Position numbers and translations under genes: made by a program
Part shown: piece after piece, positions 2,651-62,955 of the stretch
Position numbering within the stretch: the first letter of the stretch is position 1
Layout of the letters: every line of letters begins with the position of its first letter
The notes under the pieces: generated by a model
The model's database searches: none
Told to the model about the DNA's origin: nothing
The model's input: the letters and a program-made list of their open reading frames with translations, nothing else
Source: Lycium barbarum
Taxonomy: Eukaryota; Streptophyta; Magnoliopsida; Solanales; Solanaceae
NCBI RefSeq assembly: GCF_019175385.1
Contig: NC_083343.1
Span: forward strand, 53,280,457-53,344,456
Reading direction: 5' to 3'
DNA: 64,000 nt

Positions 2651-3401
2651 CATCAACTCGTCCTCATCTTATGCATATATATATATATATATATAAACAT
2701 CTAGAGTAAAACTTTTCCCTAATCGTTAACTTCGTTTCCCATATCAATATCTCCTCATTATCTCTTACTCACCAATCTATAAATTGTAATACTTCTTTTG
2801 AGTTCTTAATGTCAACTTTCCCTATATCTTCATAAATCTCAAGTATCCGAAATCTCGAATGCAACTCATTCCAGTTCCATTAATTACAAATCATTTTTCC
2901 CCTCCAAGGTTCTTCCCGTAAATTAAATTGAAATCATTCTAGAACTTCTCTTTGAAAGCATCTCATAATTGTTCATTCAATCATGACTTACTAAACATCC
3001 GATTGTCACATTTTCCTTCATTCTTTCTCTATAGCATAGACAATCAAATAATTCTATTTGTAAAAATTTCAGCAGAGTTTCCTCTATACTTCTTAATGCC
3101 TCATTCCTTCACACAACCCAGAAAACACATCCAATGCCTCACAGGGCGATCACAAATACCTGTAACATCTAGCTCAAGTTCTTGTATCAAAGTCTATCAA
3201 TATCAATACGACAGGAAACATACCTTTCGGTGTAAGAACTTCAATTCTCATCAATTACCTCATAGCGGCATAATCAACTGCTTATCCACAATCAAAACAT
3301 TTAGGGTTAGAACCAGGGATATCACATCCTATAATTTAGCTCTACGACATGATCTAAGATGAGAAGGAAGGTTCAATGGTTCCTAAATGCCCTATAGCCT
3401 C

Positions 3402-3436
3402 TTGTTTATAATTGTGGCGCGCTTCACACCTATAAA
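3402..3436 (-). promoter_or_regulatory. Leader stem-loop with palindromic loop GCGCGC (element G)
   Basis: It lies about 50 bases downstream of the primer binding site, reading the minus strand. The arms TTTATA and TATAAA flank an inner TGTG/CACA stem, and the loop holds GCGCGC at 3417-3422. The same position in the other elements carries a stem-loop with a different self-complementary hexamer. Dimerisation or packaging is inferred. Confidence 0.55.
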
Positions 3437-3482
3437 TAAGACTCTACTAGACATGAGCAGCAGACAACCCTAGGACAGAACT

Positions 3483-13754: not shown

Positions 13755-13864
13755 CACTGCAAACACAATAACGAATTAGATCAAAATCATCCTAATAGCA
13801 CAGCTCTAACGCACGATCTAAGATTCCAAAGAAAAGTGACACCCTAAATGCCCTGTAGCCTCCT

Positions 13865-13898
13865 GTTTATAGACGTGGTGCACAACACACCGATAAAC
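13865..13898 (-). promoter_or_regulatory. Leader stem-loop with palindromic loop GTGCAC (B)
   Basis: Minus strand: outer arms GTTTAT and ATAAAC, inner arms GGTGTG and CACGTC (two G-U pairs keep it closed), loop TTGTGCAC. The palindrome is 13878-13883. Confidence 0.7.
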
Positions 13899-13942
13899 AA
13901 GACTCTACGAGACACGGCCTGTGGACATTCCGAGGACAAACC

Positions 13943-20584: not shown

Positions 20585-20960
20585 AATCTCTCCTGGGGAT
20601 GAAATAAGACACGTGGATTTCATATTTTCTTCCGTTTCCCGAGTCATTCTTCTCAGTTGTTATCTTGCCATAAGACCTTAACTGAGGCCACTTATTTATT
20701 TCGAGGTCTCCGTACTTGCCTATCGAATATGGCAATAGGTAGCCCTTCATACATCAATCTTTTCTTGTCACTTGAACATCATTTACTTGCATAATCCTAG
20801 CAGGATTTCTAACATATTTATGAAGCATCGAGACATGCACAACTGGGTGAACTGACTCTAAATCAGGAGGTAGATCTAATTCATAAGCCACCTTGTTTAT
20901 TTCGCACACAATCTCATAAGGCCTAATGCATCGGGGACTAAGCTTCCCTCCCATCCAGTG
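20585..20960 (-). pseudogene. Element D integrase tail and chromodomain relic
   Basis: The frame ending at 20754 reads GGKLSPRCIRPYEIVCEI, then AYELDLPPDLESVHPVVHVS. This is the integrase C-terminal region seen in A, B and E. Further left, after a frame change, IAIFDRQVRRPRNK and VASVKVLWQDNN are recognisable, with several stops: a dead chromodomain-like end. It shows that D descends from a pol-bearing element. Confidence 0.75.
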
Positions 20961-27819: not shown

Positions 27820-28215
27820 TCTGCATGATTCTGTATGACTCTGTACTACTCTGCATGCATAATTCTGTCCGACATACTTCTGTCTGTCCGTCTGAATTAC
27901 GACTATGTCTGTATGTCCGTATGGATTCTGATTCTGTATGTCTGTATGGATTCTGATTCAGTAGGTCCGTATGGCTTCTGATTCTGTATGTCCGTAGGGA
28001 TTCTGATTCTGTATGTCCGTATGGATTTTTATTCGGTACGCCCGTATGGACTCCGATTCTGTACGTCTGTATGGATACTGATTCTGCTCGTCTGTCCGTA
28101 TTATGATTCCGTCTGTCTGTCCGAACCATGATTCTGTTTATCTGTATGAACCACGACTCTGTATGTCTGCCTGGATCATGACTCTGTCCGTCCGTCTGAT
28201 TTATGGTTCTGTCTG
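27820..28215. repeat. TCTG-rich tandem array, about 30-bp unit (F left LTR)
   Basis: Roughly a dozen degenerate units like GATTCTGTATGTCCGTATGG. The right LTR repeats it at about 34535-34930. Reading frames across it on either strand are repeat artefacts. Confidence 0.85.
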
Positions 28216-28269
28216 TTATATTTCTGTGACTCCGGTTCGGACTATGTTTATATCTACTATGTTTCTGCT

Positions 28270-28336
28270 TTACATACTCGGTACATTTTTCGTACTGACC
28301 CCCGCTCTTCGGGGGCTGCGCTACATGCCCGCAGGT
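28270..28336 (+). promoter_or_regulatory. Conserved LTR two-hairpin block (F left LTR)
   Basis: TACATACTCGGTAC, GTACTGA, CCCCC (28299-28303), GGGGG (28311-28315), then GCTGCG and ATGCCCGCAGGTACAG. Confidence 0.72.
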
Positions 28337-28784: not shown

Positions 28785-28828
28785 GGTTAGTCCTCGGAAT
28801 GTCTACAGGCCGTGTCTAGTAGAGTCTT

Positions 28829-28862
28829 GTTTATCGATGTGTTGTGCACCACATCTATAAAC
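28829..28862 (+). promoter_or_regulatory. Leader stem-loop with palindromic loop GTGCAC (F)
   Basis: Arms GTTTAT/ATAAAC and GATGTG/CACATC with a single mismatch between them; loop TTGTGCAC, palindrome at 28844-28849. Confidence 0.72.
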
Positions 28863-28971
28863 AGGAAGCTACAGGGCATTTAGGATGTTACCCTTCATTG
28901 GATTCTTAGATCGTGCGATAGAACTGTATTAGTAGGATGATCCTCTCCTAACGATCTGCTATGTTTCAGTG

Positions 28972-30444
28972 ATGCCTCTGAAGAAGGCAACAGCTGCCCA
29001 GAAGGGCAAGGCGAGGATAGAGGCAGGAGAGATCAGCCCGGCCCAGAGGGTTACCAGGGCCAGTGTGCAGCCTGCACTTGAGGATGTGCCCCCGTCGTCT
29101 GGATCTGTTACACCCCCCTTGCCGGAGGATATCAGAGCAGCAGAAGCTGCTAATCAGGAGACGGCTCCACCACAAGCTCCTGAGGTTCCAGTGCCCGAGC
29201 CTCCAGCTCCACAGGCAGGGGCGGAGGGTAGGGCCATGCGAGACGCGGTTCAGTTATTGACCACATTGATGGCGGAGCAGGTTCGGAGGCATGGATTTGG
29301 GGGTGGTCGTGTGGACAGGTATGAGAGCTCCAGGGCTCGTGAGTTTTTGACATGTAATCCTCCAGAATTCTCCGGGGCAAAACCTGAGGAGGACCCCCAG
29401 GAGTTCATTAGAAAGATGGAGAGTACAATACGATTGATTAAGGCTTCGCCGATTGAGTCTGTGAAGTTGGCTTCGTATCGATTATATGAGGTGGCGGCAA
29501 ATTGGTATGAGTCTTGGCAGCTCTCCAGGGGTGACGATGGTCCCCCAGCGGTATGGGCCGAGTTTACTAAGGCCTTTCTTGATCATTTTCTACCACCAGA
29601 GCTACGGAGAGCTAGGGTTGATCGGTTCTTGAACCTGAGACAGAATGGTAGAAGTGTTCGCGAGTACAGCCTAGAGTTCGACTCACTGGCTAGGTATGCG
29701 CCCGCCATAGTAGCCGATATGGCCGATAGGGTGCACAGGTACGTGATGGGACTAGACCCTTATCTGATTGACGGTTGCTTGGCCATGGCTTCTCAGCCAG
29801 GGATGCATGTAGCCCGGGTACATGCATACGCCCAGGGCATGGAGGACCGACGTAGGGAGCGTCGGCCTGATAGGGGTTACGACAGGGGCCGGCCTAAGAG
29901 AGCCAGATCGGCTGGATATTCAGGGGGATTTCAGGGTGAGCCTTCCCAGCGGCAGGGTAACAGGTATTCGTCCCAGCCAGCCTACAGTACACCCCCACAC
30001 TTCACGGGACAGAGCTCCAGAGTCCCAGGCCCACAGGTGAGCAGAGGTCCCGGTCAGTCGAGGCCACCCATACACCCATGTTCTTACTGTGGGAGACCCC
30101 ACCCGGGGGAGTTTTATCGCGCTACGGGCGCTTGTTATTTTTGTGGGAGCCCAGACCATCGAGTCAGAGAGTGCCCGCTTAAGGGCAGTTCAGGTTCAGC
30201 CCGGCCTACTGGGTCCGTTGCAGGCTCATCTTCTCCTTCGGCGGCCATGCGCCCCACGGGGCGAGGAGCACCGACACCAGCACCAGCGCCAGCGGGTCGT
30301 GGCAGAGGACGTGGTGCAGATTCTGGTTACAGCGGTCCTTCGAACCGCGTGTTTGCTTTAACCGGCCAGCAGGACCCAGGAGCGTCTGCGAGCGCACGCC
30401 CAGGTACGCCAGCGATTCTTTTTGAGAGATGTATGTATGGATAA
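28972..30444 (+). CDS. gag: Element F Gag polyprotein, intact (490 aa)
   Basis: An uninterrupted frame starting at the ATG at 28972 (MPLKKATAAQKGKAR), two bases after a TTTCAG acceptor-like site. The upstream GTG is not used as a start by its relatives. Residues about 150-245 hold the retrotransposon gag capsid region (NWYESWQLSRG, HFLPPELRRARVDRF, SLEFDSLARYAP). A basic Arg/Gln/Ser/Pro-rich linker follows. One zinc knuckle, CYFCGSPDHRVREC (about residues 387-400), has all four ligands. The upstream half-knuckle of its relatives has lost a cysteine (GEFYRATG). The frame ends just before the point where the protease begins in A, B and E. Expected role: virus-like particle assembly and RNA packaging. 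Among the gag sequences here only this one is unbroken. Confidence 0.9.
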   Translation: MPLKKATAAQKGKARIEAGEISPAQRVTRASVQPALEDVPPSSGSVTPPLPEDIRAAEAANQETAPPQAPEVPVPEPPAPQAGAEGRAMRDAVQLLTTLMAEQVRRHGFGGGRVDRYESSRAREFLTCNPPEFSGAKPEEDPQEFIRKMESTIRLIKASPIESVKLASYRLYEVAANWYESWQLSRGDDGPPAVWAEFTKAFLDHFLPPELRRARVDRFLNLRQNGRSVREYSLEFDSLARYAPAIVADMADRVHRYVMGLDPYLIDGCLAMASQPGMHVARVHAYAQGMEDRRRERRPDRGYDRGRPKRARSAGYSGGFQGEPSQRQGNRYSSQPAYSTPPHFTGQSSRVPGPQVSRGPGQSRPPIHPCSYCGRPHPGEFYRATGACYFCGSPDHRVRECPLKGSSGSARPTGSVAGSSSPSAAMRPTGRGAPTPAPAPAGRGRGRGADSGYSGPSNRVFALTGQQDPGASASARPGTPAILFERCMYG

Positions 30445-32178: not shown

Positions 32179-35100
32179 CATTTTTGTTTATTCGAAAAAT
32201 TCAAGATAAATTGACTTGTGATGAATAAGGCCACAATTGAACATTTCATGGTATGAATGTGTAGGTTATGAATACCATGGTGTGGAATTACGAAAGGAGG
32301 CCAAGGGCAAAAATTGGAATTTTGGAAATTTGTCCCATGAATTACAATAATTAGCCAACCATTTTGGGCTCAAAAAAATAAGTGAAGGGAGGCCCAATTT
32401 AAGGGGCCCAACCGGCCACATGCCAATCCAAGCCCATGGATTAATTAAATTCCATGGGAAATTATATAACATGGATAAGCTCTAAGAAGCTTCAAGAAAA
32501 AAAAAGAAAGCAAGAAAAAAAAAAAGCAAGAGGGTTCGGGTTTGAGAGAGAAAAAGAAAGAAAAGAAAGAAAAAAATTTAGGAGCCAATTCTTTGGTTTA
32601 AAAGATCATCTCTTGTGAAATTATTACCAAGTGCAAAGCCCTCTACAAGTTGATATAAGTATTGTGGCAAGAAAGCAATTTTAACTTCCAAGTGAAGAAC
32701 TTGAAGAAAGGTAAGGATTTCATGCTTTTGCTATGTTATAAATGGTATATGTATGTTGTAGTATGTGTGAATGAGTGAAAAACATGGAAATTTTGTGAGT
32801 TGAAAATCATGCATGTTGGCCGAATTTATGCATGAATTGTATGTTTAAGATGGCTTGAATTCATGTTGTAATTTAGTTGTAGTATGATGGAAATTGTGTT
32901 AGAAATGAAAGTGGAATGAATTAGTGAAAATTGAAAAATATAGGAGGTGGCCGTGTGGTGCTATGTTGAGTATGGAATATGAATTTGATCTTGTTTTCAT
33001 GCTAAGTGTGCTATGGTGAAGTGAATGGGAAGATAACAATCTCTATTATCTTGGAAAAATGACTATTAAGTTGTTGTAGGAGAATATCCAACTTTGTTAT
33101 GGTTTATGTAAAAATGGAAATGAAAGTATCAAGAGGCAAATTATGATCATTGTTGATGAATTTGGAAGATGGAATTGTATAATGAACTTGTATGTGGAAG
33201 GTTAGGAAACAATTGGAAAAAGTAGTGACTTAACGGAAAGTTTGAATGTTTGCGTATCTTATGAATATTGTGTGAAAATGGTATGGATGCCTCCGATGTA
33301 TGTCGTAATGAATTTGATGGATGATGAATATGAAAATAATGAGTTTGGTTTGGAAATGTAAGTTTGAAACGAAAGACGTTCCGTTATGTCGAAAGATGGC
33401 TAATGATGCCATAGTGTATGTTTTAATGTCTATTGATGTTTTGATGTCATTTCTGGGTTGTTGTGTTGATGAATTGAGCCGAGCTAAGTCTCGGGGATGT
33501 CTTATATACATAGGAAATGCTGCCGAAATTTCGGTAGGCAAGTATGTGTAAAGTTGGAATATTGAAAGTTTGAAACTAACAAATGGTAAACTTGACCATT
33601 TCCAGATTTTGGACGAAATTTGGATTGACGCCAAGCGAGCATAAGGCGCCATCGAGGTATGTGAAGCATTTCCCTTTGTTCCTAGGCATGTTCTGGATGT
33701 GATAGGCTCGGCCGCGAGCCTTAAGTACGACTCCGTTCCCCGGAATTCGAGACGGAAAACCGCTCCAATTCCTTCAATTCAATTGAAGCTATTTTCTTAC
33801 AAATTGCCTTTAAAGTGAGTTTTTGTACAAAACTTCCCTCAACGGAGTCGGAACACTTCCAAACGATTATGGATGACCTCATAAGGTCTATTAGCGATAA
33901 TTTACATATGTTGCCTCGAGTTGGTCCGAGGAGGGCCCGCAAGGCCCGATATCTTCTGTAATACTTTAAGTACTTCCGTTTTGTCCGATTTTCTCAGAAA
34001 CCATCTGAACTATTATTTTGATTATGATACGACTATTTTTATGAAATTCTTACAAAATGATTTCTGAACATCTGAGAATCTGATTCTGATAATAATCTGT
34101 CGTGCCTTCCCAAGTAGGATATAGGCGCGTACTATGCATATTATCCGTATACTCTGATTTTGACTCGCCGTTTGGCACCTTCAGTTTGATTGAGTCTGTA
34201 TGTTGAGTCTGTATGTAAGTAGTTTCTCATTTATCGGTTCGTGTCTGTCTCAATGCATTCCTTCACTGCGTCCCGAGCCAGGTTCTGTTATCGTGCATAT
34301 TTCTCTGCATTGTTCACCGCGTCCCTCGGCGTGCGGGCCGGGATCTGTATGTCTGTATGATATTATGATATGTGTATGGGGATGGCGGCCAGGATGGCAT
34401 ATGATCTGATCTGATTCTGTCTGTCCACCGCGTCCCGTACTAAGAGGGTCGGGTTCTGTTACCGCGCCCCCAGACAGGGCCGGGATCTGTATGAATGTAT
34501 GCGTGTGCCATTTGTATTTATTTAAGCACATGCCTATGTATGATTCTGTATGACTCTGTACTACTCTGCATGCATAATTCTTTCCGACATACTTCTGTCT
34601 GTCCGTCTGAATTACGACTATGTCTGTATGTCCGTATGGATTCTGATTCTGTATGTCTGTATAGATTCTGATTCTATAGGTCTGTATGGCTTCTGATTCT
34701 GTATGTCCGTAGGGATTCTGATTCTGTATGTCCGTATGGATTTTTATTCGGTACGCCCGTATGGACTCCGATTCTGTACGTCTGTATGGATACTGATTCT
34801 GCTCGTCTGTCCGTATTATGATTCCGTCTGTCTGTCCGAACCATGATTCTGTTTATCTGTATGAACCACGACTCTGTATATCTGCCTGGATCATGACTTT
34901 GTCCGTCCGTCTGATTTATGGTTCTGTCCGTTATATTTCTGTGACTCCGGTTCGGACTATGTTTATATCTACTATGTTTCTGCTTTACATACTCGGTATA
35001 TTTTTCGTACTGACCCCCGCTCTTCGGGGGCTGCGCTACATGCCCGCAGGAACAGACGCGCCAGGTGATACGCCGCCAGCATAGGTTTCTGGTTCAGCTG

Positions 35101-39903: not shown

Positions 39904-40013
39904 AGCTGTAAACATAATAGTCTGTTAGGAAGGGATTATTCTGATAATATAGCTCTATCGCACGATCTAGGATAAGAAGAAAAGATTACATCCTAAATGT
40001 CCTGTAGCTTCCT

Positions 40014-40047
40014 GTTTATAGATGTGGTGCACAACACACCGATAAAC
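40014..40047 (-). promoter_or_regulatory. Leader stem-loop with palindromic loop GTGCAC (E)
   Basis: Minus strand: arms GTTTAT/ATAAAC and GGTGTG/CACATC (one G-U pair), loop TTGTGCAC with palindrome at 40027-40032. Confidence 0.7.
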
Positions 40048-40091
40048 AAGACTCTACTAGACACAGTCTGTAGACACTCCGACGATGAACT

Positions 40092-44874: not shown

Positions 44875-44992
44875 CAACTTTGCTGAAATTATAACGCACC
44901 ATTAGGGAGGGGATAATCTTATAACACAGCTCTATCGCACGATCTCTTAAGATGAAAGATGGTCAGTTTTCCTAAATGCCCTGTAGCCTCTT

Positions 44993-45037
44993 GTTTATTA
45001 GTGTGGCGCGCAACACTCCATAAATAAGACTCTAATA
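44993..45037 (-). promoter_or_regulatory. Leader stem-loop with palindromic loop GCGCGC (D)
   Basis: Minus strand: AGTGT and ACACT form a five-base stem around TGCGCGCC, with looser outer TTTAT/ATAAA pairing. The palindrome is 45006-45011. Confidence 0.62.
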
Positions 45038-47651: not shown

Positions 47652-48094
47652 TTTAATGGATGAAATTATACTATATTAGCATGAGGATAGCATGAGTATG
47701 ATATTTAGAATTTGTACAATATGATTGGCATGATACGTTAAAATATATATATAGCCCTCGTAACAGTAAGCTGGGGTGGGGCCCACATGATGGGGTTTTT
47801 ATAAAGGACATATTACAAGTTATATGGACTGTATATGTGAAGTTAAACACAACTCAAGAAGGACACTTGAACCAAATCCAAGTGTAAGCCCTCCAAAAAA
47901 GATGTTTCTAAATTACGTTTTCGGGTGATCTTACTTCGGGAGGCCATAACCCCATCATTATTTTGGAATTTGGGAAAACTCAAAATCTGAAAGTTGTAGA
48001 TAATTGAATTAGATTTCAAACCATAGTTTGTGCACCTTCATGTGACAGGGATAAAAAGTTATGGACATTTTAAGGCCAAAAGGTTAAACAACGC

Positions 48095-48153
48095 AGTGGG
48101 CTCGGCCCAACCCGACTCCAAGTCGGGTCAGGCCCACTTCCCTTGCTATTTAA
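48095..48153 (+). promoter_or_regulatory. C LTR U3 hairpin and TATA-like box
   Basis: AGTGGGC (48095-48101) pairs with GCCCACT (48132-48138). Inside it CCCGACT-CCA-AGTCGGG (48111-48127) is a perfect hairpin. TATTTAA follows nine bases later. LTR2 repeats the arrangement at 51632-51690. Confidence 0.6.
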
Positions 48154-49327
48154 TGCGAGTTTTCACCCCTAACTTCCTCATTTTCATACCAAAAGAACCA
48201 AAACATTTTAGATAGAGAGTGAGGAGAGTTACAAAGATAATTCAAGGGTTCGATCAATTTCGAGGCCCCGAATCACGAGGCTCGTGAAGGATAAAGTGCA
48301 GTACCAGTTGTCGTCGTCATTTTAAGCTAAATATTGAGCTTTGGAGATGGTATTTTCGTGGTTGAGCTACTGCTAAGGTATGTATTATCTTCTCATCTTT
48401 GTTATTGAGATGATTGCGTAGAGATTTAACGGATTAAAGTGTTAGGAATATAGTTATAATTATCGTATGCCGAATATTAAGGCGTTGTGGTTTAGGGGAT
48501 ATTTTGGATGGAATTGTAAGATGAGTTTAGTTAAATTATTGTTGAAAATTGTTAGATTTGTTATTGTTGTTGGTTATTAGCTGAATTTGGAATTGTTGGG
48601 TTGGTAGGATTATAGACGAGATGTTGTCCAGATCACGTTAGGCGAAAGAATAAATGATTGGTTAGAGTAATCTTGTTGGCCTAGTCTTAATCCCTATACT
48701 CAGGAAGGGACTGGAGGAATAGCTTAAGGCGTAAATAAGGTATGTAAGGCAAAACTTTCTTCCTTTGGCATGATTCTTATTGTCATTCATTCTATAAGTA
48801 CTCTATATGATTCAATTCTTAGACGAGTAAGGTCTAAATGTTTGTTGTGATGGCTTATTGATATTGTACTCCTATTCTGTTCTAAAAGGAACACCCATAA
48901 GATGCCAAGTTGAGTTGTGTATGTGGTTTTACTAATGATTTCGAGGAAATGAGTTTTATACTAAAGGAAACATAAAATTTGATTTTCAAAACAACTCCGA
49001 AGGGGGTGCGAGATTTACTACTTCATTTCATATAAGATTTATGTTTACATTCCATAGTATCATCCCTTTGTATTGATATGATAATTTATTATTTGGGAAG
49101 GGCAATAAGATGAAATTGAGTAGAATATATGTAGTAAGAATTTCATAACAATTCTACCCTCAAACCTGGAAGTATGTCCTCCTAAGTCTAGTGAGATACA
49201 AATTTGATAACTTCTTATGAAAGACTAAGGCTAATAACTGGATTGTGATGAATTGATTAGTCACTTATGATATAAATTGAAATTGATATTTGTGGATTGA
49301 GTTTGTGTTGATATGATGGTAATTATA

Positions 49328-49460
49328 AGCCGGAAGCGGCTGCCCGAAGGGGCCATCATTATTATGCCGGAAGCGGCCGTCCGAAGGGACTATTGTGATA
49401 CTAGCCGGAAGCGGCTGTCCGAAGGGACCATTCTGTTAACATGTCAGAAGTGGCATGTCT
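49328..49460 (+). repeat. GCCGGAAGCGGC hairpin repeats (C LTR1)
   Basis: Three units plus a degenerate fourth. Each begins with GCCGGAAGCGGC, itself a 4-bp stem with a GAAG loop, followed by CCGAAGGG. LTR2 has a rearranged version at about 52855-53010. Confidence 0.8.
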
Positions 49461-50108
49461 GTTGGATTGCATTATTTACTTAAATACGTTGTGTGCACAT
49501 TCATGATTCTTCCAGCGAAGGCTGCAGGTATTGAGTTAGATTGTGATTTCTTCTCTCCTAAGTCAAATTATTATTATGATTTGTTACCACCTTACATACT
49601 CTGTACATTGTCCGTACTGACATCCTTTTTCCTGGGGACGTTGCGTTCATGCCCGCAGCGCAGATTGTTTGGCAGGTTAAGTTGACGTCAGCTGGGATTG
49701 GGAAGTTTCACCTCATTTTGGAGCTGTGCTGAGACATGTATAGATATGTTTGATTATGGGTATGTAAGGGCCCTATCCTGACTCATAATGTTCAGTTTAC
49801 TTCTTAGAGAATTTTGCAGACAGTGTCGTGTGATGTGTTTGTCGATATGTTAACAAAGTGATGTCAGTTGAGTCATTTGTGGATTTTAAAAGAGTATGTA
49901 TTATAGATGATTTCAATTGGTTTAAAGTACTTATTTGATCGAAAGTTTTCATAATCGTTATAAAGATAATGATTTCTATTTGGAAACGTTTTATGTTCTT
50001 AAAAGTTTTTGAAATAAAAAGTTTTTAATAGAGCGAATATCTGAGGGTTCGCTCGACTCTGATGAGAGTCGGGTGCCCGTCATGCCTTACCATTGTTAGG
50101 ATGTGACA

Positions 50109-51110
50109 AAGTGGTATCGGAGTAGTTCGTTCTAGGGGTTGTCTGCAGAGTCGTGTCAGGTAGAGTCTTGTGGATGGGTGTGTTGTCGACCACACTCATG
50201 AACAATAGGCTACAGGGCATCATGGATGGTTTCCCTTCATTCAGATCATAGATTGTGCTATAGAGCAGTGTTATAGGCCTTGAATCCTTACAGCAAACTT
50301 TAAGATTTGAATTTTGATTAAGTGATTGTAAAGTGCAGATATGATTGCGAAATTGGAATTGCTCGTAAGAAAGGGTGTTGTAATATGATTTTGGCCCTGT
50401 GAGGCATGTTGATATATTTTGATTGTTGCCCTGTGAGGCTTATTGGTTAGCTGCGTACAGGTGGGCAGTACAAATTACAGAGAAGGCTCTGCCAAAATTT
50501 TGTTAGAATTGATTGTGATCTGTATATATATGTGTGCTATGATCAGTAAGATACACAAGTGTAAACAGAAGAGTGAAAGGTTAATAATAGTTGTAAATCG
50601 GCTGAAAGGAGGGTTATAAGATGGGTTCAGAATGAGTTTGAGAGTTAGATTGAAATTACTCGACGATATAGAAGTGAGTCAAGGGTTAAGTTATGCTCTC
50701 TCGGGGATTAGAAGTAATGTTTATGAACTAAGATTAATATGATTTGAATAATGCGATAAGATTAGGAGAAGAGACCTAAGAGGGGAAGCAATGATAAGCA
50801 AGGACTCATTCGAGAGGTGAGTTAGTACAAAAAAGAGTAAGCTTAAACGTGTAAAGAATGAAACAAGGAAGAGAAAGAAGCATGATTATATGTGTTTGAG
50901 GAAAGGGATTAATGTGTCCCTCATAGAAATCAATATAACTGAAAGCATCAATGAGGTTAAGGGAAGTTGAAGACTATAAGGGAAAGATAATTGTCGAAAA
51001 GGACCTTACGAATTGTGAAGGGTTGAATGATATCAGTAAGTGTTGGAATTGGATACGAGTATTAGTCTTCATTTAATATTCGAGGACGAATGTTTCTAAG
51101 AGGGGAAGGA
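50109..51110 (+). other. C internal region 1, non-coding
   Basis: It has the primer site TGGTATCGGAGT (50112-50123, two mismatches), a leader stem-loop (50174-50199), no ORF of note, the inverted repeat AATATTCG/CGAATGTT (51075-51094) and a purine tract (51098-51110). Relative to internal region 2 it lacks 130 bases at 50373/50374. Confidence 0.82.
50174..50199 (+). promoter_or_regulatory. Leader stem-loop with palindromic loop GTCGAC (C, copy 1)
   Basis: ATGGGTGTG pairs with CACACTCAT (nine pairs, one G-U); loop TTGTCGAC, palindrome at 50185-50190. Confidence 0.7.
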
Positions 51111-53653
51111 TGGTACACCCTAAAATATTTCTCGTTCCTAAGGCTGCAGACGGCTTAATGTGAGCTCAAGGAGGAGCAAATATTGCAAGTATAAAGGATG
51201 AAATTCTACTCTATTAGCACGAGGATAGCATGAGTATGATATTTAGATTTAGTACAATATGATTAGAATGATACGTTAAAAGATATATAGCCCTCATAAC
51301 CGTAAGTTGAGGTGGGTACCACATGATGGGGTTTTTACAAAAGACATATGACAAGTTATATGGACGGTATATGTGAAGTTAAACACAACTTGAGAAGGAC
51401 TCTTGAGTCAAATCCAAGTGTAAGCCCTCCAAAACAATTGTTCTAAGTTACGTTTTCGGGTGATCTGACTTCGGTAGGACATAACGCCATCATTATTTGG
51501 ACATTTGGGAAAACTCCAAATATTAAAGTTGTAGATAATTGAATTATCTTTCCAACCATAGTTTGTGCACCTTCATGCGACATAGGGATAAAAAGTTACG
51601 GACGTTTTAAGGCGGAAAGGTCAAACTGGGCAGTGGGCTCGGCCCAACCCGACTCCAAGTCGGGTCAGGCCCACTTCCCTTGCTATTTAAGGAGAGTTTT
51701 CACCCTTATCTTCCTCATTTTCATACCAAAGGAACAAGAACATTTTAGGGAGAGAGTGAGGAGAGTTAGAGAGATAAAGCAAGGGTTCGATCAAGTTTGA
51801 GGCCCCGAATCCCGAGGCTCGTGAAGGATAAAGTGTAGTACGAGTTGTCGTCGTGATTTTAAGCTAAATATTGAGCTTTAGGGATGATATTTTCGTGGCT
51901 GAGCAGCTGCTAAGGTATGTATTATCTTCTCCTCTGTGTTATTGAGATGATTACGTAGAGACTTAACGGATTAAAGTGTTAGAAATATAGTTATAATTAT
52001 CATATAACGAATATTAAGGCGTTGTGGTTTAGTGGCTGTTTTGGATGGAATTGTCAAATGAGTTTAGTTATATTATTGTTGTAAATTGTTAGATTTGTTG
52101 TTGGTTATTAGCAGAATTTGGAATTGTTGGGTTGGTAGGATTATAGAAGAGATGCTGTCCAAATCCCCTTAGGCAAAAGAATAAATGATTGGTTAGAGTA
52201 ATCTTGTTGGCCTAGTCTTAATCCCTATATTGTTTATTATATTCTAGTTGACTAAGCTCAAGATGGGACTCGAGGATTAGCTTGAGGCGTAAATAAGGTA
52301 TGTGTGGCAAACCTTTCTTCTTTTGGCATGATTTTTATTGTCATTCATTCTATAAGTACGCCATATGATTCCATTCTTAGACGACTGAGGTCTAAATGTT
52401 TGTTGTGATGGCTTATTGATATTGTACACCCCAAATTGAGTTGTGTATATGGTTTTCCTAATGATTTCGAGGAAAAGAGTTTTATACTAAAGAAAACATA
52501 AAATTTGATTTTCAAAACCACTCCGAAGTGGATGAGAGATTTTACTACTTCATTTCATATACGATTTATGTTTACATTCCATAGTATCATCCCATTGTAT
52601 TGTTATGACTATTTATTCTTCGGGTAGGGCAATAAGATTAAATTGAGTAGAATATAAGTAGTAAGAATTTCATAACAATTCTACCCTCAAACCGGGAAGT
52701 ATGTCCTCCTAAGTCTAGTGAGATATAAATTTGATAACTTCTTATGAAAGACTAAGGCTAATAACTGCATTGCGATGAATTGATTCGTCACTTATGATAT
52801 GAATTGAAATTGATATTTGTGGATTGAGTTTGTGCTGATATGATGGTAATATGAAGTCGGAAGCGGCTGCCCGAAGGGGCCATCATTATTATGCCGAAGG
52901 GACCATTCTGTTAACATGTCGGAAGTGATATGAAGGGATTATTGTGATACAGGCCGGAAGCGGCTGTCCGAAGGGACCATTCTGTTAACATGTCGGAAGT
53001 GGCATGTTTGTTGGATTGCATTATTTACTTAAAGATTGTTTTGAAACTTCGTGTGCAAAGCGAAGGCTGAAGGTATTGAGTTAGATTGTGATTTCTTCTC
53101 TTCTAAGTCAAATTATAATTATTATTTGTTACCACCTTACATACTCAGTACATTCTCCTTACTGATGTCCTTATTCCAAGGGACGCTGCGTTTATGCTCG
53201 TAGCCCAGATTGTTTGGCAGGTTAAGTTGACGTCAGCTTGGATTTGCAGGTTTCACCTCATTTTGGAGCTGTGCTGAGTCATGCATAGATATGTATTATT
53301 ATGGGTATGTCAGGGCCCTGTCTTGACTCATAATGTTCAGTTTACTTCTTAGAGACTTTTGCAGATAGTGTCCTGTGATATGTTTGTCGAGATGTTGACA
53401 AAGTGATGTCAGTTGAGTCATTTGTAGATTTTAAAAGAGTATGTATTGTGGATTATTTCAACTGGTTTAAAGTACTTATTTGATCGAAAGTTTTCATAAT
53501 CTTTATAAAGAGAATGATTTATATTTGGAAACGTTTTATGTTCTTAAAAGTTTTTGAAATGACAGGTTTTTTGTAGAGCGAACATCTGAGGGTTCGCTCG
53601 ACTCTGATGAGTGTCGGGTGCCCGTCATTCCCTACCATTGTTAGGATGTGACA
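51111..53653 (+). mobile_element. C LTR2, complete
   Basis: 2,543 bases, TGGTACACCC to GATGTGACA. It starts after a purine tract and ends before a primer site, so it acts as right LTR to one internal region and left LTR to the next. U3 hairpin at 51632-51675, TATTTAA at 51684-51690, donor at 51915-51916. Confidence 0.9.
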
Positions 53654-54785
53654 AAGTGGTATCAGAGCAATTCGTTCTAGGGGTTGTCTGCAAAGTCGTG
53701 TCGGGTAGAGTCTTGAGCATGGGTGTGTTGTCGACTACACTCATGAAGAGGAGGCTACAGTGCATCTTGGATGGTTTCCCTTCATTCAGATCATCGATTG
53801 TGCTATAGAGCTGTGTTATAGGCCTTGAATCCTTACAGCTAACTTTAAGATTTGAATTTTGATTAAGTGATTGTAAAGTGCAGCTATGATTGCGAAATTG
53901 GATTTGCCCGTAAGAAAGGTAAGTTCTCTGATGATTAATGATTGCTATTTGAGGTAAATGTTGCAGGTTAAGGACTACATTAAGAAAGGTATGCTTCTTA
54001 TCGAATTGAGAATGCCATTGTGAAGAGCATTTGTACAGGTATGTATAGGATGTTGTAATATGATTTTGGCCCTGTGAGGCATGTAGATATATTTTGATTG
54101 TTGCCCTGTGAGACTTATTGGTTAGCTGCGTACAGGTGGGCAGTACAAATTATAGAGAAGGCTCTGCCAAAATTTTGTTAGAATTGATTGTGATCTATAT
54201 ATATGTGTGTGCTATGATCAGTAAGATACACAAGTGTAAACAGAAGAGTGAAAGGTTAATAATAGTTGTAAATCGGCTGAAAGGAGGGTTATAAGATGGG
54301 TTCAGAATGAGTTTGAGAGTTAGATTGAAATTACTCGACGATATAGAAGTGAGTCAAGGGTTAAGTTATGCTCTCTCGGGGATTAGAAGTAATGTTTATG
54401 AACTAAGATTAATATGATTTGAATAATGCGATAAGATTAGGAGAAGAGACCTAAGAGGGGAAGCAATGATAAGCAAGGACTCATTCGAGAGGTGAGTTAG
54501 TACAAAAAAGAGTAAGCTTAAACGTGTAAAGAATGAAACAAGGAAGAGAAAGAAGCATGATTATATGTGTTTGAGTAAAGGGATTAATGTGTCCCTCATA
54601 GAAATCAATATAACTGAAAGCATCAATGAGGTTAAGGGAAGTTGAAGATTATAAGGGAAAGATAATTGTCGAAAAGGACCTTACGAATTGTGAAGGGTTG
54701 AATGATATCAGTAAGTGTTGGAATTGGATACGAGTATTAGTCTTCATTTAATATTCGAGGACGAATGCTTCTAAGAGGGGAAGGA
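53654..54785 (+). other. C internal region 2, non-coding
   Basis: It has the primer site TGGTATCAGAGC (53657-53668, perfect), a stem-loop (53719-53744), and TGCAG then an ATG two bases on (53879-53888). A 130-base intron-like segment is at 53919-54048. The rest is nearly identical to region 1, ending in a purine tract (54773-54785). No gag or pol is present. Confidence 0.82.
53719..53744 (+). promoter_or_regulatory. Leader stem-loop with palindromic loop GTCGAC (C, copy 2)
   Basis: ATGGGTGTG faces TACACTCAT; the pair next to the loop is lost. Loop palindrome at 53730-53735. Confidence 0.65.
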
Positions 54786-54995
54786 TGGTACACCCTAGAA
54801 AATTTCTCGTTCCTAAGGCTGCAGACGGCTTAATGTGAGCTCAAGGACGAGCAAATATTGCAACTATAAAGGACGAAATTCTACTCTATTAGCACGAGGA
54901 TAGCATGAGTATGATATTTAGAATTTGTACAATATGATTAGAATGATACGTTAAAAGATATATAGCCCTCATAACCGTAAGTTGAGGTGGGTACC
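54786..54995 (+). mobile_element. C LTR3, first 210 bases, cut by element A
   Basis: It matches the LTR2 start and breaks after GGTGGGTACC. The sequence that follows that string in LTR2 (ACATGATGGGG) is missing and should appear after A, beyond the window. Confidence 0.88.
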
Positions 54996-57417: not shown

Positions 57418-57933
57418 TGCAGACATTGGTGATCCTCCGCAGTAGGCTTCACTCTTTGCTATTCCGGAGTACTCCTCTTTGATCCGGAGTCCACTTCTGG
57501 TACAGACTCCTTTTGCTTTGTATATATTCTGTACATTTGACTATTTGGGTACGGCGGGGCCCTGTCTCGCCATATGTCTTTGTTTTGAATTCGTAGAGGC
57601 CTGTAGTCATATATGTGGGGTAAGGGTCCTGTGTATGTTGGTTTGATTTCAATTCTTGTCTTAAAGCGGTCTGTTTGTTATGATGGCCCCAAATGGCCCT
57701 TATGCTTTTGTTTACACTTTTGACCGGCGATGTCTATTCCGCCGCTCCGTTTGTATTTGATATGGTATTTTGATTTGGCGCGACCGCTTAAGACATATTT
57801 TCATATAAATTATGTTTGATATGATTTCGTAAAATTCGGAAATAAGTCTGGACCTTATAATGAATGTGTGATTCGGTCTGGGCACCCAGGTAGGGTGCCA
57901 GTCGCGGCCCACGGGGCTGGGTCATGACAAAAG

Positions 57934-57945
57934 TGGTATCAGAGC
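57934..57945 (+). other. Primer binding site for initiator tRNA-Met (A)
   Basis: TGGTATCAGAGC, perfect match, four bases after the LTR end. Confidence 0.95.
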
Positions 57946-57989
57946 AGTTTGTCCTCGGAATGTCTACAGGCCGTGTCTCGTAGAGTCTT

Positions 57990-58023
57990 GTTTATCGATG
58001 TGTTGTGCACCACATCTATAAAC
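57990..58023 (+). promoter_or_regulatory. Leader stem-loop with palindromic loop GTGCAC (A)
   Basis: GTTTAT/ATAAAC and GATGTG/CACATC give 12 pairs with one mismatch; loop TTGTGCAC, palindrome at 58005-58010. It lies between primer site and gag. Confidence 0.75.
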
Positions 58024-58132
58024 AGGAAGCTACAGGGCATTTAGGATGTTACTTTCTTTGGAATCTTAGATCGTGCGATAGAGCTGTGCTATTAGGATGA
58101 TTTTGATCTGAATCGCTATTGTGTTTGCAGTG

Positions 58133-59376
58133 ATGCCTCCGAAGAAGGCAATGGCGGCCCAGAAGGGCAAAGCAAGGATGGGAGAGACTAGCCAGGCACA
58201 GCGAGCTACCCGGGCTCGTGTTTATGATTTGCCTGAGGATGTGCCTCATTCTGAGGGGTCTGCTACACCCCCACTAGTACAGCCTGGGGCAGGACCTTCC
58301 GCAGCTCCAGAGGTCCGTGTACCCGCACCTGAGACTCCAGCTCCTCAGCCAGGGGCGGAGGATAGGACCTTGAGGGAGGCTGTACAGCTGTTGACTACAC
58401 TGGTAGCAGGGCAGGCTCGCAGACGCGGGCGGAGGGACGATGATGACGATGACAGGCGGGACAGCCTGAGAGTTCGGGAGTTTTTGTTATGTGGCCCTCC
58501 AGAGTTCTTCGGGTCTAAGCCCGACGAGGACCCCCATGACTTTATTCGGGGGATGCGACGCTCACTGGACTTGGTCAGGGCTTCAAAGACCGAGTCGGTT
58601 GAGCTAGCTACGCACAGGCTTCGAGATGTGGCTACCCACTGGTACGAGACTTGGGAGCTGTCTAGAGGAGAGGGTGCCCCTCCTGCCACTTGGGATCAGT
58701 TTGTGACAGCATTCACCCGCCACTTTTTGCCTCCAGAGTTACGGCGGGCGCGGGCTGATCGATTCTTATGTCTACAGCAGAGGGGTCGGAGTGTTCGCGA
58801 GTATAATCTTGAGTTTGACTCTCTGGCCCGATATGCACCAGCCGTGGTAGCAGATATGTCCGATCGGATGCACAGATATGTTATGGGATTGGACCGGTAT
58901 TTGGTGGATAGCTGTATGGCAGTGTCATTGCAGACAGACATGGACATTGCCCGACTTCAGGCCTATGCGATGGGTATGGAGGACCGTCGCAGGTCTGATC
59001 CTGCTGGCAGAGATCGAGATAGGAGGCCGCCCAAGAGGGCTAGGTCCGTAGGTTATTCCGGAGATTCTCGAGGCGGACAGCCTCAGCAGCAGCAGTCAGA
59101 TAGATATTTTCCTCCCTCCGGCCGGAGTACTCAGTCAGGCAGCCGGAGATTCGATAGTACGGGACCGTCTGGGGCCGGTCAGAGCTCCAGAGTGGCAGGT
59201 TCACAGGTGTCCAGGGTCCCATCCAGGCCAGACCACCCAGGCCCCGTTGTCCTCATTGCGGGAAGTCTCATCCCGGGGAGTGTTACCGAGCGACTGGAGC
59301 TTGCTTTTCTGGTGGTGGTCAGGGCCACTTTATGAGAGACTGTCCATTGGCTAGCGGTTCTGGTAGTGCTGCTTAG
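58133..59376 (+). pseudogene. gag: Element A Gag, broken by a one-base deletion and a stop
   Basis: It starts at ATG 58133 (MPPKKAMAAQKGKARMG), two bases after TTTGCAG; GTG codons upstream in frame are not the start. Capsid motifs are ATHWYETWELSRGEGAPP and HFLPPELRRARADRF. Near 59213 one base is missing compared with B, so the frame runs off to 59335. In the correct frame the zinc knuckle reads CFSGGGQGHFMRDC, with the second cysteine replaced by glycine. A TAG at 59374-59376 then replaces a glutamine codon. Expected role was particle assembly and genome packaging. Confidence 0.87.
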
Positions 59377-61539
59377 CAGACAGGGTCAGCCGCCGGTTCT
59401 TCATCTGTTGCACGCCCTAGAGGGCGAGGTATTTCAGCACCGACAGGACGCGGTCGAGGCCGCGGGGGCGTTTCAGGTTCTAGCGGTCCCTCGAACCGCA
59501 TATATGCTTTGGCCAGCCGCCAGGATCAGGAGGCTTCGCCAAACGTCGTCACAGGTACATTACTGGTTTTCTCCAGATCTGTATATGCATTGATCGACCC
59601 TGGCTCTACCTTATCATATATTTCCCTGCTCGTTGCTAGTAAGATTGGGATAGTGTCTGAGCCTATAGAGCCATTTGAGGTAGCTACGCCGGTTGGGGAT
59701 TTTATTGTAGCGAGACAGATCTATAGGGATTGTTCTGTGACCATCTATGATCGTAGCACTAAGGCTGATCTGATAGAGTTAGATATGCTTGAGTTTGACG
59801 TCATTATGGGCATGGACTGGTTGTCTTCCTGTTATGCTAATGTCGATTGCCAGAAAAAGGTAGTCCGTTTTCAGTTTCCAGGGGAGCCAGTCATAGAGTG
59901 GTTCGGATCTACTGCATCGCCGAGGGGTAAGTTTATTTCATACCTCAAGGCTAAGAAGATGATCCAGAAGGGTTACATCTATCATTTGGTTCGTGTGCAC
60001 GATACTGCAGCGGAGATACCTACCCTTCAGTCTGTTCCGGTCGTCAGTGAGTTTCCAGATGTCTTTCCTGACGAGCTTCCTGGCCTTCCGCCTGAGCGGG
60101 AAATTGATTTCACTATAGAGTTCATGCCGGATACGCAGCCTATATCTATTCCTCCGTACAGGATGACACCGGCTGAGTTGAAAGAGTTGAAGGAGCAGCT
60201 GAAAGATTTGTTGGATAAGGGCTTTATCAGACCCAGCACATCGCCCTGGGGAGCGCCGGTATTGTTTGTCAGAAAGAAAGATGGGTCATTGCGGATGTGT
60301 ATCGACTACCGGCAGCTAAATAAGGTGACTATTAAGAATAATTATCCCCTCCCCCGGATTGATGACTTGTTTGATCAGCTGCAGGGTGCTAGACATTTTT
60401 CAAAGATAGATCTGCGCTCAGGTTTTCATCAGGTGCGAGTACGGGAGTCAGATATCCCGAAGACTGCTTTCAGGACCCGGTACGGGCATTATGAGTTCAG
60501 AGTTATGTCTTTCGGGGTGACTAATGCTCCAGCAGTATTTATGGACCTGATGAACCGGGTATTTCGGCCTTTTCTGGATATGTTTGTTATTGTGTTTATC
60601 GATGACATCCTGATGTACTCGCGATCAGCCGAGGAGCATTCAGATCACTTGAGGACGATACTTGGCATTCTCCGTCAGCAGAAGCTATATGCTAAATTCT
60701 CTAAATGTGAGTTCTGGTTGACTTCTGTGGCATTCTTGGGCCATATTATCGGCGCAGACGGTATTCGGGTCGATACGCAGAAGATTGAGGCTATGCAGAA
60801 TTGGCCCAGGCCTACTACACCGATAGAGGTGCGCAGTTTTCTGGGATTGGCTGGGTATTATCGCAGGTTTGTGGAGGATTTTTCTTCTATTGCAGCACCA
60901 CTGACGAGGCTTACCCAGAAAGCAGCAAAATTCCAGTGGACAGATGCCTGCGAGCGCAGCTTTCAGATGCTGAAGGAGAGATTGATTACAGCACCAGTTC
61001 TGGCTCTTCCAGAGGGATCTGACGGGTATGTTATCTATTGTGACGCCTCTGGTATTGGGATACGATGTGTATTGATGCAGCACGGTCGAGTCATAGCCTA
61101 TGCTTCCCGGCAACTCAGACCGCACGAGAAGAACTATCCTACTCATGATCTTGAGTTGGCCGCGGTGATTCATGCTTTGATGATTTGGCGGCATTATTTA
61201 TATGGGGTCCATGTTGATATCTATACGGACCATAAGAGTCTCCAGTATATTTTTAAGCAGAAGGAGCTAAATTTGCTGCAGCGGAGATGGCTTGAGCTAC
61301 TAAAGGACTACGACGTTGATATTCTGTACCATCCGGGGAAAGCCAATGTAGTAGCTGATGCGCTTAGCCGCAAGTCCGTGGGCAGTCTGGCTGATGTTCC
61401 ATCTGATAAGAGAGATTTGGTTCGTGATATTCATCAGCTGGCCAGCCTCGGAGTTCGTTTGGCAGATTCTAGAGATTCTGGGATTTCTGTTCGTCCAGTT
61501 GCTGAGTCATCTATTATTCAGGAGGTAAAGCAGCGCTAG
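59377..61539 (+). pseudogene. pol: Element A protease, reverse transcriptase and RNase H
   Basis: Open from after the TAG at 59374 to a TAG at 61537-61539 (a glutamine codon in B). Protease [13 protein letters not shown] lies near 59590. RT begins at [27 protein letters not shown] and the catalytic [10 protein letters not shown] follow (aspartates at 60601-60606), then [10 protein letters not shown]. RNase H shows IYCDASG (near 61041), [12 protein letters not shown] and [12 protein letters not shown] glycine of the GIGIG motif is arginine (GIGIRC). RT and RNase H active-site residues are present. No frameshift separates this stretch from the integrase part, only the stop. Confidence 0.92.
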
Positions 61540-62955
61540 TTTGAGGATCCTCTTTTGATTCAGTACAGAGATGTGGCCCTTAATAAAGCAAAGACTCAAT
61601 TTGAAATCTCGCCTGAAGGAGTATTATTGTACGACGGCAGATTCTGTATACCGGACGTTGCGGGCTTACGGCGGCAGATTATGGGCGAGGCACATAATGT
61701 ACGGTATTCTGTTCATCCTGGTTCCACTAAGATGTATCGGGATCTCAGGTGTTTGTATTGGTGGGACGGCATGAAGAAAGATATTGCCGAGTTTGTTAGT
61801 CAGTGCCCGAACTGCCAGCAAGTTAAGATCGAGCATCAAAAGCCCGGTGGATTGTTACAGGAGATGGAGATTCCAGCCTGGAAATGGGAGATGATTAATA
61901 TGGACTTCATTGTTGGGTTGACGCGTACTCTACGCAGGTACGACTCTATTTGGGTTATTGTGGACAGGCTGACAAAATCGGCCCATTTCTTTTCGGTCCG
62001 GACTACTTATTCGGCTGAGGACTATGCCAGATTATATATCAGAGAGATAGTCAGACTTCACGGAGTCCCTGTATCTATTATTACTGACCGAGGTGCCCAG
62101 TTTACAGCTAATTTCTGGAGGTCATTTCAGGAGGGATTAGGGACTCAGGTGAGCCTCAGTACAGCTTTTCATCCTCAGACCGACGGGCAGGCCGAGCGCA
62201 CTATTCAGACGCTCGAGGATATGTTGCGGGCCTGCGTTATTGATTTCAGGGGCAGCTGGGATGATCATTTGCCGCTTATAGAGTTTTCCTACAATAACAG
62301 TTATCACTCCAGCATTCAGATGGCTCCGTACGAGGCCCTTTATGGCAGGAGATGCAGATCTCCTATTGGTTGGTTCGACATCGGCGAGACTAAGTTGGTT
62401 GGGCCAGATGTGATCCAGGAAGCTGTAGATAAGGTGAAGCTTATTCGGGAGCGACTATTGGCTGCTCAGAGTCGACAGAAAGCTTATGCTGATAGACGAC
62501 GTCGACCGTTAGAGTTCCAGATTGGTGACTGGGTATTCCTGAAGGTGTCGCCCATGAAGGGCGTTATGAGATTTGGTAAGAAGGGTAAGTTGAGCCCGTG
62601 GTACATCGGGCCATACCAGATTGTTCGGAGGATAGGCGCAGTCGCCTACGAGCTAGACTTGCCATCCGATTTGGAGGCCGTGCACCCGGTGTTTCATGTG
62701 TCCATGCTGCGGAAGTGTATTGGTGACCCTTCCAGGATATTCCCAGTAGATGATCTTCAGGTGACGGAGCAGTTGTCTTATGACGAGCAACCTGTATCTA
62801 TTCTGGATCGTCAGGTGAGGAGATTGCGCACTAAGGAGGTGCCTTCTGTCAAAGTTCTGTGGCACAACAGTAACCGGGAAGAGATGACTTGGGAGGCGGA
62901 GGATGAGATGAAGAAGAGATTCCCCCATTTATTCCCTACGCCTCTTGTAACCTAG
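61540..62955 (+). pseudogene. Element A integrase and chromodomain-like tail
   Basis: This continues the same frame after the TAG to a TAG at 62953. Zinc domain: [11 protein letters not shown] (about 61711) and CPNCQQVK (about 61804). Catalytic triad: aspartate in NMDFIVGL (about 61903), aspartate in TDRGAQFT (about 62085) and glutamate in GQAERTIQ (about 62190). The C-terminal region has GDWVFLKVSPMKG and VHPVFHVSMLRKC. A chromodomain-like end with VKVLWHNSNREEMTWE may direct integration into heterochromatin, as proposed for chromoviruses. All integrase residues expected for activity are visible. Confidence 0.92.

Follow-up and report, generated by a model that had tools for sequence, protein, structure and literature searches.

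Plant LTR retrotransposons make up much of many plant genomes, and how their RNAs are chosen and paired is little known. A 64,000-nt stretch of the goji genome (Lycium barbarum), here called the window, raises this question in concrete form: the leaders of several retrotransposon families carry a hairpin whose loop hexamer changes its spelling from family to family and remains self-complementary. What keeps the symmetry while the letters change? Here, we argue from sequence and structure prediction that the leader hairpin of these Ty3/gypsy elements is very probably best explained as a retroviral-type dimer-initiation kissing loop. Every sequence analysed comes from this one genome (1.67 Gb), and papers are cited by PMC number for the portions of their text that were available.

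Eight leaders in one window

The window leaders are eight copies from seven families: A, B, D, E, F and G occur singly and C occurs twice (Table 1). The original prediction spoke of six elements, a number at odds with its own list, and located the hexamers correctly: all eight lie exactly where it placed them and are spelled as it gave them (GTGCAC in four, GCGCGC in two, GTCGAC in two), and all eight are palindromic. Element A has the gene order of a plant Ty3/gypsy chromovirus (Gag, then protease, RT, RNase H and integrase), of a clade that we take to be Del/Tekay. Its integrase part matches Integrase_H2C2 above the cut-off (64.5 bits) and rve just under it (31.9 bits, cut-off 32.6), followed by a Chromo match of 21.8 bits (cut-off 25.1). 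B and E resemble A all along gag and pol. F has an open gag frame of 490 residues with a zinc knuckle (28972-30444), and no pol match was found for it in the window; it may be a half-parasite, one whose Gag could come from itself. For C, D and G, no gag or pol match was found within the window apart from a chromodomain-region remnant by D (20647-20948); G extends beyond the window edge. The closest named relatives of gag are L. barbarum proteins, at about 70-76% identity.

Two of these elements have an unusual architecture. Both LTRs of F (27831-28280 and 34546-34995) hold an array of 25-base tandem repeats. C, at 47654-54995, is a tandem of the form LTR-internal-LTR-internal-LTR, the third LTR of which is cut by A; the similarity of its first two units is 87-94% up to 50371 and 96-100% beyond. 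Such a mosaic is expected from template switching between co-packaged relatives (for template switching in complex elements, see PMC1950507), or from unequal recombination.

Table 1. Positions of the leader features and of the genes of element A, numbered along the window
Feature	Position	Strand	Basis
A, conserved leader block common to all families, LTR end to before gag	57925..58099	+	self-comparison, alignment
A, primer-binding site	57934..57945	+	
A, hairpin plus outer helix (GTGTCT/GGGCAT)	57973..58040	+	alignment
A, candidate kissing-loop hairpin, loop TT+GTGCAC, hexamer 58005-58010	57986..58027	+	fold -18.1 kcal/mol, z -4.57
A, gag open frame (Retrotrans_gag)	58133..59332	+	ORF and domain match
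A, pol, protease-RT-RNase H	59509..61539	+	domain match
A, pol, integrase and chromodomain-like end	61555..62955	+	domain match
F, hairpin, GTGCAC 28844-28849	28825..28866	+	alignment and fold
B, hairpin, GTGCAC 13878-13883	13861..13902	-	alignment and fold
E, hairpin, GTGCAC 40027-40032	40010..40051	-	alignment and fold
D, hairpin, GCGCGC 45006-45011	44989..45029	-	alignment and weak fold, z -1.07
G, hairpin, loop AA+GCGCGC, hexamer 3417-3422	3400..3441	-	alignment; minimum-energy fold pairs part of loop
C copy 1, hairpin, GTCGAC 50185-50190	50166..50207	+	alignment and fold
C copy 2, hairpin, GTCGAC 53730-53735	53711..53752	+	alignment; minimum-energy fold pairs part of loop

In a self-comparison of the window (matches of at least 150 bases at E 1e-20 only), the only part of A matched by D, C and G starts at 57893-57925 and ends at 58085-58095, the rest of the LTR and the genes being unmatched. 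An alignment of the eight leaders (A1), which starts at the LTR end and stops short of gag, has 189 columns with a mean column identity of 82%. The hairpin sits between gag and the primer-binding site, presumably a tRNA-iMet site (TGGTATCAGAGC in A), with the hexamer 60 nt past the primer site in A, and it is present in elements with and without recognisable genes; this place, and the presence where no gene is recognised, would fit a packaging-linked dimerisation site. Two loop bases (TT or AA) stand 5′ of the hexamer, and stem bases follow directly at its 3′ side. When 50-nt pieces are folded in isolation, the proposed hairpin with its 8-base loop is the minimum-energy structure in six of the eight copies (A, F, B, E, D and C1), but not in G and C2, where part of the loop pairs. 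The z-scores range from -4.57 (A, F) to -1.07 (D), and the isolated D hairpin barely beats its shuffles, 29 of 200 of which fold equally well. Compensating G-U closure of the stem, as originally suggested, is seen at pair 79/98 (G-C in four leaders, G-U in four) but not at the loop-closing pair 84/93, which is G-C in seven of the eight. An Rfam scan of the window gave no family at gathering score, and MIR2084 (16.4 bits against 100) was taken as chance. A second well-conserved leader block lies beyond the hairpin (GATCGTGCGATAGAGC in A, 58069-58084, A1 columns 155-170).

Could the eight palindromes have arisen by chance? Columns 87-92 of A1 form the sole six-column window, out of 184, in which all eight rows are palindromic, the runner-up reaching three. 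The variable gap-free columns give 3916 pairs; every row is Watson-Crick at 17 of these, including the nested, adjacent hexamer pairs 88/91 and 89/90. For a neutral simulation, GTGCAC was evolved from A on a leader tree built without the hexamer, under eight settings of rate and transition bias with 1,000,000 runs each; runs with all eight tips palindromic in at least three kinds make up 1e-6 to 2.9e-5, a probability to be doubled for the choice of site because row A has two palindromic hexamers. An earlier simulation of 4000 runs gave zero such outcomes. Column shuffles of the eight rows place both the number of cells changed on both sides and the covariation score above all 500 shuffles; the number of pairs changed on both sides does not exceed them all (9/500 for stem plus loop, and an ordinary 99/500 for loop alone), and that of further pair types is ordinary (338/500 and 337/500). 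These eight-row counts are small.

Spellings across the genome

Other copies were sampled with a profile whose hexamer columns were masked, run over twenty 10-kb pieces of the genome at round coordinates plus three next to the window. Hits below 28 bits or with fewer than 45 bases of columns 60-115 were dropped; these include the incomplete copies of L171 and L137, and weak matches that the hairpins give on their own reverse strand. Fifteen leaders pass this cut, 12 close and three distant (L134, L135 and L148). Nine of the close leaders are palindromic, three of them C-family copies beside the window; two have one G-U pair (GTGCGC, GCGCGT) and one has a mismatch (GCGCAC). The round-coordinate stretches alone thus give six palindromic leaders out of nine, with the same three exceptions.

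Larger samples come from loop-masked searches for four families (best 40 of 1541, 3956, 4461 and 1241 candidates), each of which listed 38 or 39 other places; 20 of these were taken every time, picked down the list before reading. Among the matches listed, the C family has 15 palindromic copies of 20, all GTCGAC, next to GTCAAC (2), GTTGAC, GGCGAC and ATCGAC (one each). A family near G (L143) has 14 of 20, all GCCGGC, next to GCCGAC (2), ACCGGC, GCCGGA, GCTGGC and GTCGGC. A D-type family (L144), with which D groups on the tree at a support of 0.76, has 13 of 20, namely 12 GCGCGC and one GCATGC, next to GCGTGC (3), ACGCGC, GCGCAC, ACGCAC and GCACGC. With 19 of 20 in a distant family described below, non-palindromic hexamers are not equally frequent among the matches listed. 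Seven more A-type copies, taken from the 39 further places that an unmasked query listed, all have GTGCAC.

In sum, the sample comprises 87 distinct leaders (8 from the window, 7 A-type, 12 sampled and 60 out of three family searches), and 66 of them are palindromic: one spelling has 20 copies, three have 15 each, and GCATGC has one. The count and the tree exclude leaders below 100 bits or with fewer than 85 bases of columns 40-140 (L134, L135, L148 and L171), and L122, which is window A itself, is excluded from the count. The four common spellings all have G-C at positions 1/6; they are the four combinations that result when 2/5 is either T-A or C-G and 3/4 either G-C or C-G. The next-best palindromic site, CCTAGG (A1 column 33 on; near the primer site in the distant family), occurs in 48 of the 87 leaders in one spelling; this second palindrome never becomes another palindrome. 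On a hexamer-free leader tree, the kind of palindrome in the loop changed at least six times, once for the single GCATGC copy, as counted on 67 palindromic tips of 88 rows after pruning the 21 non-palindromic rows; node supports reach 0.99 at best and 0 at worst, with several weak nodes. Window G (GCGCGC) falls inside the GCCGGC clade. The central claim, that self-complementarity is kept despite changes of sequence, is upheld by these changes, by the neutral simulation and by five spellings in all.

The fifth spelling belongs to the family of L135, which scores only 30 bits against the leader profile, yet folds at the corresponding position into a hairpin whose loop has nine bases. In its family search eight loop bases were masked, and 20 copies taken from the 39 other places in the best-40 list give TGATCA 19 times and TGATAA once. 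In 15 of these copies the predicted loop has nine bases (two, then the hexamer, then one), in three it has 11, and two lose the stem. TGATCA is found in 20 of the 22 rows of the family alignment, and other palindromes are kept equally well (CCTAGG in 22 and, at a second site, 18; TCTAGA in 21; AAGCTT in 21; TTTAAA in 20), so the conservation of TGATCA alone proves little. The weight of this family is that it offers a fifth palindrome spelling in the same loop. The other distant leaders, both single copies, are non-palindromic (TGACCA in L134, GACTTC in L148).

Departures from the family spelling are C-to-T or G-to-A in 19 of 21 substitutions, and 12 of the 21 are at CpG; these exceptions look like the decay of methylated copies. 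Single copies show 0.042-0.083 departures per site in the hexamer against 0.021-0.026 in the rest of the leader. They lose the hexamer faster than other leader sites, and the constraint is therefore visible between families, not among copies.

The stem was followed in 37 leaders (8 from the window, 9 from the round-coordinate stretches and 20 of the C family), with shuffles and without R-scape. Of all cells, 94.0% pair; 39 cells are changed on both sides, against 13.3 +/- 3.4 in 500 shuffles (none as high), a count that related rows inflate. The covariation score is 0.160 against 0.107 +/- 0.005 in the shuffled set, and sliding the partners by 1-3 columns gives 2-5 both-side-changed cells. Two further measures are ordinary (pairs changed on both sides, 77/500; further pair types, 78/500), so the covariation that was anticipated appears in most of the measures but not in all. 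Pair 78/105 (A3 columns) is C-G in 20 and U-A in 15 of the 37 leaders, a compensated change in which the A family has U-A and the C family C-G.

A candidate dimerisation site and its alternatives

We propose that the hairpin is the dimerisation initiation site in the genomic RNA of the Ty3/gypsy elements described here. Two genomic RNAs would meet by Watson-Crick pairing between their self-complementary loop hexamers, forming a kissing loop; the palindrome would thus act between two RNAs, and Gag would package the resulting dimer, which would then be reverse-transcribed. Pairing of two identical RNAs would explain why a loop stays self-complementary through changes of spelling, and the sampled families, the neutral simulation and the stem covariation all support the leader stem-loop as a candidate dimerisation signal.

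The loop might instead pair inside its own RNA, as a pseudoknot or monomer switch, its self-complementarity being a by-product. In A, F, B, E and D, a GTGCG or CGTGCG at A1 columns 158-164 could serve as partner to 5-7 bases of the loop, and the HIV-1 monomer is described as hiding its own palindrome (PMC5192399). By the same criteria, however, G and C2 have such a partner only elsewhere and C1 has none, although all eight hexamers are palindromic, and, judged by eye, neither GTCGAC nor GCCGGC matches GTGC. We consider this reading improbable, and an intramolecular partner was rejected as a general explanation since it is not kept in all families; the downstream GTGCG may act as a monomer switch. 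We give equally little credence to a plain packaging or translation hairpin whose palindromes are inherited or fortuitous: the whole leader is conserved and is common also to elements without any gene found, as such a hairpin would have it, but the chance of the window pattern is at most 3e-5 and the spelling changed at least six times with its symmetry kept. Palindromes suit dimeric DNA-binding proteins, which favour them, but a double-stranded DNA site with no RNA element is very improbable for a hexamer that lies inside the transcript, downstream of the primer site, and whose five spellings have symmetry alone in common, at the tip of a hairpin with a compensating stem.

A dimer-initiation loop has close counterparts in known systems. 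The HIV-1 dimerisation loop lies before gag and has a 2+6+1 size, and the loop of the distant goji family is likewise 2+6+1. As in HIV-1 SL1, the goji palindrome is six bases long and occupies the apical loop of a hairpin in the 5′ leader; unlike in SL1, the loop of the main goji families has 8 nt, with two bases 5′ and none 3′ of the hexamer, the spellings include GUCGAC, GCCGGC and UGAUCA, and the site belongs to a retrotransposon of plants. Dimerisation through 5′ palindromes is known from retroviruses, with GUGCGC as a third HIV-1 spelling (PMC5874298) besides GCGCGC and GUGCAC, which are among the commonest of HIV-1 (PMC3605237). The original prediction took the shared spellings for convergence with HIV-1, which is not borne out. 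Yeast Ty3, itself a Ty3/gypsy element, also uses a 5′ palindrome: PAL6 is a short palindrome near the 5′ end, lies at a hairpin tip in vivo and is needed for dimerisation in vitro (PMC11381356). In contrast to the goji site, Ty3 CUGCAG lies at +391-396 and, by its position, would be one of three palindromes that the same paper places in the GAG frame. For yeast Ty1, kissing loops are proposed to start dimerisation and Ty1/Ty2 divergence to limit co-packaging, but through two different complementary loops and not one self-complementary loop (PMC5454406). For the barley pair BARE1/BARE2, a plant element lacking Gag is described as packaged by the particles of its relative, and conserved dimerisation and packaging signals are stated; unlike the goji elements they are of Copia type, and the available text gives no loop sequence or covariation and calls the packaged RNA of other elements fairly little known (PMC3735527).

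A plant Ty3/gypsy dimerisation loop was not recognised among the matches listed from the open-licence literature, a body that mostly leaves subscription papers outside, nor were words of the hairpin sequence found in open-licence papers; the available main text of a 2025 review of plant elements has no word beginning with "dimer" (PMC12786077). Searches of IMG/VR found nothing related to the pol protein and, by primer-site pattern, no locus among at least 121 that matches the proteins of A. GTDB genomes gave nothing, and a protein-level route through the antisense frame over the hairpin gave no candidate.

Predicted pairing between families and possible parasites

If loops kiss, their spelling would influence which RNAs pair. 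The predicted unpaired probability of the loop is at least 0.94 in A, E and F, 0.70-1.0 in C1 and lower in the remaining four, so that C1 is mostly exposed, B and C2 are partly so, and D and G poorly. For the last two, folding of the 206-nt leader predicts about half or more pairing at most bases of the hexamer. Hexamer energies (kcal/mol) are -7.9 for A-A, -10.9 for D-D and -7.5 for C-C among like pairs, and -6.6 for A-D, -0.1 for A-C and -0.9 for D-C among mixed ones. Cofolds of whole hairpins, where extended duplexes are modelled instead of kissing loops, yield -11.4 for A-A, -19.3 for D-D and -10.9 for C1-C1; with D, -10.6 for A, -20.4 for B and -17.0 for E; and with C1, -1.7 for A and -6.7 for both B and E. 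B and E thus cofold better with D than with themselves (-11.4). C is predicted to pair poorly with the remaining families, and for D, pairing with A, B and E is not clearly barred; by energies and cofolds, C should stand apart and D should not. The suggestion that neither C nor D would pair with A, B, E and F is therefore sustained for C and not for D. HIV-1 RNAs with GCGCGC and GUGCAC palindromes do copackage, reduced only 2.3-fold (PMC3605237).

A tentative extension, which we regard as possible but somewhat doubtful, is that the hexamer serves as a compatibility code: co-resident families would differ in their self-pairing spelling and so avoid heterodimers, and parasites would keep the spelling of their helper or change it. 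The split would run chiefly along the centre pair, GC-centred GTGCAC and GCGCGC against CG-centred GTCGAC and GCCGGC, with TGATCA apart; pairings were computed for the window leaders, and those of GCCGGC and TGATCA are read from their letters. F shares GTGCAC with A, B and E, and might be co-packaged with any of these. Loop spelling would then predict with which partners a family or a parasite can share particles and recombine, and a loop that can be read from sequence, with at least five natural spellings in one genome, supplies ready-made compensatory mutants.

Separate from the hairpin, a 3′ splice-site-like TTTGCAG, TTTCAG or TTTACAG ends two bases 5′ of the gag ATG in A (58124-58133), F (28963-28972) and, at the same place, B and E. 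A donor-like CAG/GTAGGG, a partner sought by eye, stands at the LTR end of A and B and is absent from E. The gag mRNA might thus be spliced free of the primer site and the hairpin.
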